Below are positions 46,138 through 48,766 of a stretch of DNA of 64,000 nt, piece by piece. The stretch spans positions 1-64,000 of the forward strand of contig CAUJGP010000006.1 in NCBI GenBank assembly GCA_963170155.1. The letters are read 5' to 3'. Numbering within the stretch: position 1 is the stretch's first letter; the number at the start of each line of letters is the position of its first letter. The stretch is from Bdellovibrionota bacterium (GTDB lineage: Bacteria; Bdellovibrionota; Bdellovibrionia; Bdellovibrionales; Bdellovibrionaceae). The notes below the pieces were generated by a model. It did not search any database. It was not told the origin of the DNA and saw only the letters and a list, made by a program, of their open reading frames with translations. A program made the position numbers and the translations under genes.

Positions 46138-46653
46138 TTAATTCGTGCGAATATAGTCTAATACTTCTTGAGCATGACCTTCCACCTTTACTTTTCGCCA
46201 AGAGTGCTCAACCTCTCCGTCCCCGTTGATGATGAAAGTACTTCTTTCAATTCCCATGACCTTTTTCCCATACATATTTTTTTCTTTAATAACATCAAAA
46301 AATTGGCAGGCAATTTCATCTTCATCGCTAATGAGATCCAATTTATAGCACTCTTTTTCAATAAATTTTTGATGTTTACTGACAGAATCACGAGAAATAC
46401 CAAAAACCACTGTGTTCAATTTTTTAAACTGAGGTAATAATTCTGTAAATTCATGACCTTCAATCGTACAACCTGGCGTCATATCTTTAGGATAAAAATA
46501 AAGAACTATCCTTTGACCCTTGAAATCCTTCCAGCGAAACAGTTTTTCTCCTGTCATGGGTAAAGAAAGCTTATCAATTTTTTTTCCGATGAGAAGATCT
46601 TCCTTTTGAATATTTGATTTTTTTTTAGTCGTTTTTTTTGCAGTTGAAATCAT
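46138..46653 (-). CDS. bcp: Bcp/PrxQ-type thiol peroxiredoxin
   Basis: Thioredoxin-fold peroxidase detoxifying hydroperoxides. I use the ATG at 46651-46653 with AAAGGA eight bases upstream, giving 171 residues; an earlier GTG/ATG would overlap the neighbouring gene. Peroxidatic Cys is in YPKDMTPGCTIEGHEF. The resolving Cys five residues on, found in E. coli Bcp, is absent (Gly/His there), though Cys residues near 102 and 115 exist. A Lys/Thr-rich N-terminal tail of about 20 residues precedes the fold. It follows the ABC-F gene by 17 bp on the same strand. Confidence 0.88.
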   Translation of the reverse strand: MISTAKKTTKKKSNIQKEDLLIGKKIDKLSLPMTGEKLFRWKDFKGQRIVLYFYPKDMTPGCTIEGHEFTELLPQFKKLNTVVFGISRDSVSKHQKFIEKECYKLDLISDEDEIACQFFDVIKEKNMYGKKVMGIERSTFIINGDGEVEHSWRKVKVEGHAQEVLDYIRTN

Positions 46654-46670
46654 CCTTGTCATCCTTTCGT

Positions 46671-48296
46671 TTATGATTTTTTTGATAAATAATACGCCCA
46701 ATCCCCTTCAATCACATTCAGATTTTGTCTATCTAATTCAAAAACCTTCGTTGTAATTTCTCTTAAAAAATAACGGTCGTGACTGACAATCATCACAGTT
46801 CCAGGGAAGCTTTTAATTGCTTCCAATAAAATCTCCCTAGAGACGATATCGAGATGATTTGTCGGTTCATCCAGGACGAGAAGATTCGGCGCCTGAGCCA
46901 AAAGGCATGCCAACACCACTCTGCTTTTTTCACCACCAGATAAAATATCAATGCGTTTTTCCACATCTTCACCAGAAAACTTGAAGGCGCCCAAGAGATT
47001 GCGAATACTTCCTAGAGACGCCATGGGAATCCTTTTTTGAACCTCATCGAGAATTGTACTCTTGGAGTCTAAAACATCCAAAGAGTTCTGGGAAAAATAA
47101 CCCATCCTAATGGAGCTCCCAATGCTCAGTTGACCTTCCGTCGGTTTAACATGGCCTGCAATAATTTTTAACAGCGTTGATTTACCAGCGCCATTGATAC
47201 CAACGACAGCCACTCGATCCAATCGTTTGACAAGCCCTTTGGCATTGCTAAAAACCAGTTTCGTCTGGCCATTGTCTTGAACCCATTGCTTCCCGAGATT
47301 CTCAAACTTCAGAACTTCATCTCCACCTCGTGGAGGCTCCGGCCACTCAAATTTAATCACTGCCTCTTCCGGAGGAATTTCAATGCGTTCAATTTTTTCA
47401 ATTTTTTTCACACGAGATTGAACTTGAGCCGCATGTGAGGCTCTTGCCGCAAATCGCGAAATAAACTCTTGTTCCTTAGCTAGCATTTCTTCCTGTCGAC
47501 GGTGGCTTGCCAAAAGCTGCTCTTTCCTGATCTGTCTTTCTCGATCATAAAAATCATAGTTTCCACCATAAACAGTTATTGTTTGATGAGCAACTTCGAT
47601 AACTTTACCAACCAATCGATTCATAAAATCTCGGTCATGGCTCGTCATCAAAAGAGCTCCTTGATACTTCATCAGCCACTCTTCCAACCATAAAATAGAC
47701 TCCATATCCAAGTGATTGGTGGGCTCATCCATCAGTAAAATAGAAGGATTAAGAAGCAAAATTTTCGCTAATGCCACCCTCATCTTCCAGCCTCCTGAGT
47801 AGCTTTCAGTAAGACGATGATGCTCATCCGGAGGAAAACCTAATCCTGTTAAAATCTCGGCGGCCTGGGACTCCAATCCGTAACCTCCGATTTGTTCAAA
47901 CTCTGTTTGGGCTTCTCCGTATTCCTCTAATAGTTGAGCCATCTCTTCATCACTCATCGGCTTCATCGCTGACTGCTCGAGTTGCTGTTCGAGGACTTTG
48001 ATTTTTTCTTGCAGTTTAAGAAAATTCGTATTGGCAGATAAAACTTCTTGTAAAATGGTTTGACCCGCCATCTCCTCAATATTCTGTGAAAAATAACCCA
48101 TCGTCATTCGCTCAGGCTTTGAAACACTGCCTGCATCAATACCCTCTTCTCCTGAAAGAACTCGAAAAACAGTGGTTTTTCCAGCTCCATTGGGTCCCAC
48201 CAAGCCCACTTTTTCTCCCGGATTAATTTGAAAAGATGCATTTTTATACAAAATCCGAGGTCCGTACTGCTTCGTCACCTTTGAAAAATGAACCAT
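46671..48296 (-). CDS. ABC-F family ATPase (ribosome-associated type)
   Basis: 541 residues with two nucleotide-binding domains and no membrane segment. Domain 1: Walker A GPNGAGKTT near 35, signature YSGGWKMRVALAK, Walker B ILLMDEPTNHLD. A charged linker (about 240-300, HRRQEEMLAKEQEFISRF...) is the P-site interaction motif region. Domain 2: Walker A GINGAGKST near 350, signature LSGGEKSRVVLACLLA, Walker B LLVLDEPTNHLD. The family (EttA, Uup, YbiT, antibiotic-resistance ARE proteins) acts on ribosomes. AAGGA lies six bases before the ATG. Upstream is a terminator overlapped by a leader ORF, the arrangement used to induce ARE ABC-F genes. Confidence 0.93.
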   Translation of the reverse strand: MVHFSKVTKQYGPRILYKNASFQINPGEKVGLVGPNGAGKTTVFRVLSGEEGIDAGSVSKPERMTMGYFSQNIEEMAGQTILQEVLSANTNFLKLQEKIKVLEQQLEQSAMKPMSDEEMAQLLEEYGEAQTEFEQIGGYGLESQAAEILTGLGFPPDEHHRLTESYSGGWKMRVALAKILLLNPSILLMDEPTNHLDMESILWLEEWLMKYQGALLMTSHDRDFMNRLVGKVIEVAHQTITVYGGNYDFYDRERQIRKEQLLASHRRQEEMLAKEQEFISRFAARASHAAQVQSRVKKIEKIERIEIPPEEAVIKFEWPEPPRGGDEVLKFENLGKQWVQDNGQTKLVFSNAKGLVKRLDRVAVVGINGAGKSTLLKIIAGHVKPTEGQLSIGSSIRMGYFSQNSLDVLDSKSTILDEVQKRIPMASLGSIRNLLGAFKFSGEDVEKRIDILSGGEKSRVVLACLLAQAPNLLVLDEPTNHLDIVSREILLEAIKSFPGTVMIVSHDRYFLREITTKVFELDRQNLNVIEGDWAYYLSKKS

Positions 48297-48307
48297 TTTT
48301 TATCCTT

Positions 48308-48346
48308 CTAGAAAAAAAGCCAATGAAAGAAACCTTTCATTGGCAT
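48308..48346 (-). CDS. 12-codon leader ORF upstream of the ABC-F gene
   Basis: ATG at 48344-48346 with GTGAGG eight bases upstream encodes MPMKGFFHWLFF and a TAG. Half of the residues are Phe, His or Trp. The ORF runs through the whole terminator stem and T-run, and its stop codon is joined to the Shine-Dalgarno sequence of the ABC-F gene (TAGAAGGA). Ribosomes on this ORF would prevent the terminator from folding and could re-initiate on the ABC-F gene. Translation is inferred, not shown. Confidence 0.5.
   Translation of the reverse strand: MPMKGFFHWLFF
48312..48344 (-). terminator. Intrinsic terminator / probable attenuator in the ABC-F leader
   Basis: On the minus strand GCCAATGAAAG pairs perfectly with CTTTCATTGGC (11 bp) around loop GTTT, followed at once by TTTTTTT. 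It ends 16 bases before the ABC-F start. No gene lies upstream on this strand (the neighbour is the plus-strand kinase), so it has nothing to terminate except the ABC-F leader transcript. Confidence 0.75.
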
Positions 48347-48403
48347 AAATACAACCTCACACAATAAATCTCATCTGGATCTTTGCCATAAAATACTCAA
48401 AGC

Positions 48404-48431
48404 ATCTTAATGAAAAATTCACAACTTTCAA
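48404..48431 (-). promoter_or_regulatory. Candidate promoter for the ABC-F leader
   Basis: TTGAAA, 16-bp spacer, TAAGAT on the minus strand; would give a leader RNA of about 100 nt containing the leader ORF and terminator. Confidence 0.3.
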
Positions 48432-48718
48432 CTATCGTTCTTTTATGCGCCGTTACCTGAGCTAAAAGAATCTGAAATCCATTTTACGCTCAATAAAAAA
48501 CCATACTTTCGTCGGCAAATAGGAATCCTTTTGAGCAAAATAACCAAAAATGAATCCCTTCTTAAACGAACTCAAAGCTATCTTCATTTAAAGATAAGGG
48601 CCCCACCCCAAGACCTAGACAAAGCGATAGCTTAAGTGCTCCGCCGTATTTCCGATACATCATTATGATGCGTGTGAGAAGCAAAAACGTAGAGTTTCTA
48701 CGTTGAGGTGAGGTTTCT

Positions 48719-48766
48719 ATGATGACGATTCTTCAAGCGCACTCGTATGAAGTTATGCAGCCTTAA
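48719..48766 (+). CDS. 15-codon ORF upstream of the sensor kinase
   Basis: Encodes MMTILQAHSYEVMQP with AGGTGAGG five bases before the ATG, a better ribosome site than the kinase gene itself. A hairpin (AACGTAG and CTACGTT, 48686-48704) lies just upstream. May be a leader peptide; could also be chance. Confidence 0.35.
   Translation: MMTILQAHSYEVMQP

Follow-up and report, generated by a model that had tools for sequence, protein, structure and literature searches.

For the Escherichia coli ampC attenuator, ribosomes that load beside the terminator stem are proposed to block termination to a degree that depends on growth rate. The pyrBI leader ORF, pyrL, is about 44 codons long and has pause sites that give the ribosome time to catch up. 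Leader attenuation of ABC-F genes has so far been worked out mainly for Gram-positive drug-resistance factors. Control of ABC-F genes by transcription attenuation is well established; in it, a ribosome stalled on a very short ORF prevents termination (PMC9226507, PMC10314930, PMC10201436). The leader peptides are MIN for vmlR (PMC9226507), MR[I/M] for cplR and MAGN for lsaA (PMC10201436), and MYLIFM for msrD (PMC10314930). A sequence-only reading of the locus described here had held that known ABC-F resistance genes use longer leaders; for the best-studied ones, at 3–6 codons, this is wrong (PMC9226507, PMC10201436, PMC10314930). In E. coli pyrBI, the leader ORF lies across the terminator, and tightly coupled translation prevents the terminator (PMC5021804). 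For an E. coli terminator placed 30 bp past a start codon and followed 16 bp later by the stop, translation cut termination efficiency by only ~10%, because initiation takes 1–2 s; exceptions to such weak suppression depend on polymerase pausing (PMC4824070).

We analysed the region ahead of a ribosome-associated ABC-F gene in a 64,000-nt window (the whole stretch of DNA studied; contig C6 of a 2.85 Mb genome from the same family as Bdellovibrio). A strong intrinsic terminator lies just before the gene, on the same strand (Table 1). Given the terminator and its position, we infer that transcription would stop ahead of ABC-F and that this stop would be relieved, and consider it rather probable, judging from the DNA, that the ABC-F 5′ leader is a transcription attenuator.

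A terminator at the ABC-F start

Table 1 Positions in the window of the ABC-F locus and its leader features
Feature	Position	Strand	Description	Basis
Weak sigma-70-like promoter	48404..48431	minus	TTGAAA-16-TAAGAT; would start near 48397	
Candidate antiterminator strand	48384..48393	minus	UUUUAUGGCA; pairs with UGCCAAUGAAA at the stem 5′ arm	folding
Upstream mini-ORF	48357..48389	minus	MAKIQMRFIV; stop overlaps GAGGT; without ribosome site	
Ribosome site of candidate leader ORF	48354..48358	minus	GAGGT; 5 matches to anti-SD	
Candidate leader ORF	48308..48346	minus	MPMKGFFHWLFF, 12 codons; ATG 48346-48344, TAG 48310-48308	sequence
Intrinsic terminator stem-loop	48319..48344	minus	11 perfect pairs (5 G-C), loop GTTT; arms GCCAATGAAAG/CTTTCATTGGC (48344-48319)	folding and terminator scan
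U-tract of terminator	48312..48318	minus	T7	sequence
ABC-F ATPase	46671..48296	minus	541 aa; ATG 48296-48294	
AhpC/TSA (peroxiredoxin) gene	46138..46662 (or 46138-46701)	minus	start inferred at internal ATG	

Read on the minus strand, the order is GTGTGAGGTTGTATTT-ATGCCAATGAAAGGTTTCTTTCATTGGCTTTTTTTCTAG-AAGGATAAAAA-ATG, leaving a 15-nt gap from U-tract to ABC-F ATG. The stem has a minimum free energy of -16.3 kcal/mol (z -6.2), and none of 200 shuffles was equally stable. Under a strict definition (hairpin plus T-rich tail; 864 kb of genome), chosen after the site was seen, it ranked sixth by score among 52 terminators, half of them intergenic (26/52), and was the only one of the 52 that stood no more than 150 nt from a same-strand gene yet had no such gene upstream. 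A looser definition, likewise chosen after the site was seen, gave 88 intergenic sites in 1.6 Mb of source-genome stretches, including a second orphan-like site (C33:2091), 25 nt from an ORF start, with a poorer T tail and a same-strand gene 432 nt upstream. The apparent orphans of the looser set other than the ABC-F site, C33:2091 included, lay 25–161 nt ahead of an ORF, and most had poorer T tails, a long unannotated stretch behind a same-strand gene or a position common to two genes; gene boundaries in the background counts were set by a simple ORF caller instead of an annotation, and small genes may be missed. The ABC-F terminator is not a chance fold: it is real as sequence, unusual in position and one of the strongest in the genome stretches sampled.

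The nearest gene upstream is a divergent PAS histidine kinase (48789, plus strand), followed by a response regulator. That a perfect 11-bp stem and T7 stand before ABC-F with no upstream gene to end, as first read, was thus borne out. A promoter between terminator and gene was ruled out, as a 15-nt gap leaves no room for one, so ABC-F transcripts must cross the terminator. A strong terminator that has nothing to end and must be crossed is by its anatomy an attenuator. RNA polymerase would start in the divergent intergenic region and meet this terminator just ahead of the ABC-F start; many transcripts would end there, and ABC-F would be expressed from read-through transcripts only. The terminator probably limits ABC-F expression. 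Fixed partial read-through, with no switch, is less likely than not, but no less likely than the favoured single trigger below.

The AhpC/TSA gene starts about 8 nt past the ABC-F stop if the internal ATG is used, and is likely on the same transcript; the two probably form an ABC-F–peroxiredoxin operon. Among relatives, AhpC/TSA near ABC-F was seen only as weak matches (26–28%) in the loci of three, and the pairing appears private to the source genome.

Candidate leader ORF and antiterminator

The 12-codon ORF with a good ribosome site was found as originally described, running through stem and U-tract to a stop that adjoins the ABC-F ribosome site (AAGGA, just 3′ of it). The spacing from GAGGT to ATG is inside the range of long ORFs, and the 16S 3′ end (anti-SD) of the source genome is canonical. 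The AUG begins 2 nt ahead of the stem, its G being the first stem base, and the TAG lies 3′ of the U-tract, so that the ORF on a terminated RNA would have no stop codon. The upstream mini-ORF is probably not translated.

How often such an ORF arises by coincidence was estimated in several ways. In the source genome, 3.6% of intergenic ATGs are preceded by a ribosome site of at least five matches. When random intergenic DNA was grafted before the real stem, 5.5% of trials gave an ATG ORF that traversed the terminator and had at least a five-match site; at four matches the figure was 22%. This test was devised after the site was seen. Such an ORF was present at 2 of 87 other terminators of the looser set, both behind same-strand genes. 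The ORF is thus near chance (the 2–5% level) and counts as weak evidence. Its peptide does hold the residues for which it had been called aromatic-rich, but these follow from the composition of stem and U-tract, which are phenylalanine-rich in all three frames; the aromatic content reflects T-rich DNA.

Within the attenuator reading, a ribosome loading at the stem-base AUG would mask the 5′ arm, so that polymerase could pass. The properly spaced five-match site, the canonical anti-SD and the base shared by AUG and stem speak for such a trigger. With the AUG abutting the stem and initiation slow, a ribosome switch is plausible only with a polymerase pause or a pre-bound 30S subunit. Taken over all outcomes, ribosome loading at the AUG is the most likely single trigger, held tentatively.

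A ribosome-sensing leader peptide would go further: translation, or antibiotic stalling, on the ORF would block the stem and turn ABC-F on. The ORF does span the terminator from its own ribosome site to that of ABC-F, and pyrBI offers a precedent for an ORF across a terminator with coupled translation (PMC5021804). However, such an ORF has a chance of ~5% and occurs at 2 of 87 other terminators, its start is so near that a ribosome could come in time only if RNA polymerase paused, terminated RNAs without a stop codon would trap ribosomes, and no such leader was seen in the 80 ABC-F upstream regions of relatives. We regard this reading as doubtful. Of the earlier description as a ribosome-sensing attenuator, a terminator gating ABC-F stands, by anatomy; peptide sensing is little better supported than coincidence, with the ORF at the 2–5% chance level and no comparable leader seen in relatives. 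That a housekeeping ABC-F is switched by ribosome occupancy of the 12-codon ORF, as a sensor of translation initiation (or non-stop rescue) and not of one drug, is very unlikely.

Relief could also come from RNA structure, with UUUUAUGGCA (and UUUUUCAUU) pairing with the 5′ arm as an antiterminator under some signal. In RNA ending before the 3′ arm, with starts at 48397–48420, folding predicted 75–81% of the 5′ arm to be paired upstream versus 42–43% in shuffles, and 1–3% of shuffles matched this, values to be read knowing that the comparison was devised after seeing the site and run for more than one region length, indeed several. If transcription starts further upstream, AAUUUUUCAUU (48419-48409) can extend the pairing. 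Against this, 5–7% of other terminators in the genome scored equally, the signal was absent for a start at 48431, and the finished leader was predicted to be >98% in the terminator fold for all starts tested but one. The predicted antiterminator pairing is borderline, and we think control by RNA structure unlikely. The region has nine promoter-like sites against 6.8 expected; the sigma-70-like call is not reliable, and no promoter there is convincing.

Upstream region, relatives and gene identity

On the minus strand, all ORFs of the intergenic region are at most 41 aa long, and no Rfam family matched the region at gathering threshold, nor was any match at relaxed threshold meaningful. The terminator might instead close a small RNA or small gene that has escaped recognition, with ABC-F reached by partial read-through and the leader ORF coincidental. 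The 444 nt of unexplained upstream DNA, with minus-strand ORFs reaching 41 aa, would leave space for one, and the graft test makes an ORF coincidence not rare. Yet beyond the lack of an Rfam match, the leader (105 nt upstream of the stem) gave only chance-level short DNA matches in 66 family genomes, and a mere 3′ end would be oddly placed with its U-tract 15 nt ahead of a start codon. We judge this origin improbable.

Two other features lie in the same intergenic DNA. A 40-codon ORF (MLLTRIIMMYRKYGGALKLSLCLGLGVGPLSLNEDSFEFV, 48562-48684 of the window, minus strand) is without assigned function. On the upstream side of the kinase, on the plus strand, a hairpin (AACGTAGA-GTT-TCTACGTT, 48686-48704) is followed by GAGGTGAGG and then by a 15-codon ORF (MMTILQAHSYEVMQP, 48719-48766), with MMRVRSKNVEFLR preceding (48666-48707). 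This 15-codon ORF may be a better translated-leader candidate than the ABC-F leader ORF.

The relatives compared came from genera other than the source genus. In 80 distinct ABC-F upstream regions from them, GTDB loci included, there was no comparable terminator close to the ABC-F start and no comparable leader ORF; two strong hairpins lay 74 and 123 nt from the start. As far as these sequences indicate, the device is not family-wide, and its absence elsewhere is no proof of lack of function. The attenuator is probably private to this lineage.

In one other genus (g6), a hairpin-like CTCGNTCTGTCGAG stretch was considered as the same element and judged different, its pairing not being preserved. 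At four g6 loci (L015, L016, L022 and L087), ABC-F is divergent from an L31-like gene, and the DNA separating the two includes a conserved CTCGNTCTGTCGAG-like stretch; the start of the divergent gene presumably is rpmE-like (ribosomal protein L31), in our own reading of the sequence. Some g6 species have a 14-codon frame through the CTCGNTCTGTCGAG-like stretch to a T7.

A repeat or mobile element was also considered and rejected: CCAATGA...TCATTGG palindromes occur 0–4 times per genome across the family, and most look unrelated. Only one copy, after an enolase-like gene, shares T7 and ATGCCAATGAAAG with the ABC-F terminator. This near-copy (A7-CCAATGAAAG-loop-CTTTCATTGGCAT, plus strand, about 1490-1530 of locus L161; G000:C33:62882-62907) lies ~20 nt after the gene, with its T7 facing the gene on the antisense strand. 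It reads TTGATGCCAATGAAAG...CTTTCATTGGTTTTTTT, so that the ATG recurs with the hairpin; no ribosome site was seen there, and there is nothing to regulate on that strand. A related hairpin that attenuates nothing obvious counts against the attenuator reading. No copies of the stem were found in viral contigs.

The ABC-F protein passed one NCBIfam model, the general ABC-F model NF000355 (412.7 versus a cut-off of 380), and fell hundreds of bits below the cut-offs of the Vga, Msr, Lsa, Sal, OptrA, CplR and producer-type models. As judged by these models, the gene at 48296 is no recognised resistance ABC-F, and labelling the site a resistance switch goes beyond the evidence. The gene is conserved across the family, orthologues being present in about 47 of 59 relatives searched (55–71% identity). 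The source genome has three more ABC-F-like genes, one of which groups with E. coli EttA; a small tree with long branches and one bad reference row placed the 48296 gene in no subfamily.

Comparison with described attenuators

On present evidence, a lineage-private attenuator is plausible. Should ribosome loading attenuate a conserved ABC-F that is not a resistance factor, in a predatory Gram-negative lineage, then this type of ABC-F control would extend beyond resistance. For Bdellovibrio, our literature search found no report of leader-peptide attenuation. The likeness to ampC lies in ribosome loading next to the stem, in a different gene and organism and with no sign here of growth-rate control. 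As in pyrBI, the leader ORF traverses the terminator, and the stem could be blocked by a ribosome close behind the polymerase, but with the AUG so near the stem the catch-up distance is too short.

The vmlR, cplR and msrD leaders share with this locus an intrinsic terminator in the ABC-F 5′ leader and a short upstream ORF, of 3–6 codons in those systems versus 12 here. The vmlR and cplR ORFs precede the terminator and come with an alternative fold that acts as antiterminator; in msrD the terminator follows the leader ORF and precedes the gene. Here, by contrast, the ORF runs through stem and U-tract. All three are drug-inducible resistance factors; the ABC-F here, in contrast, is conserved and stands outside the resistance models.
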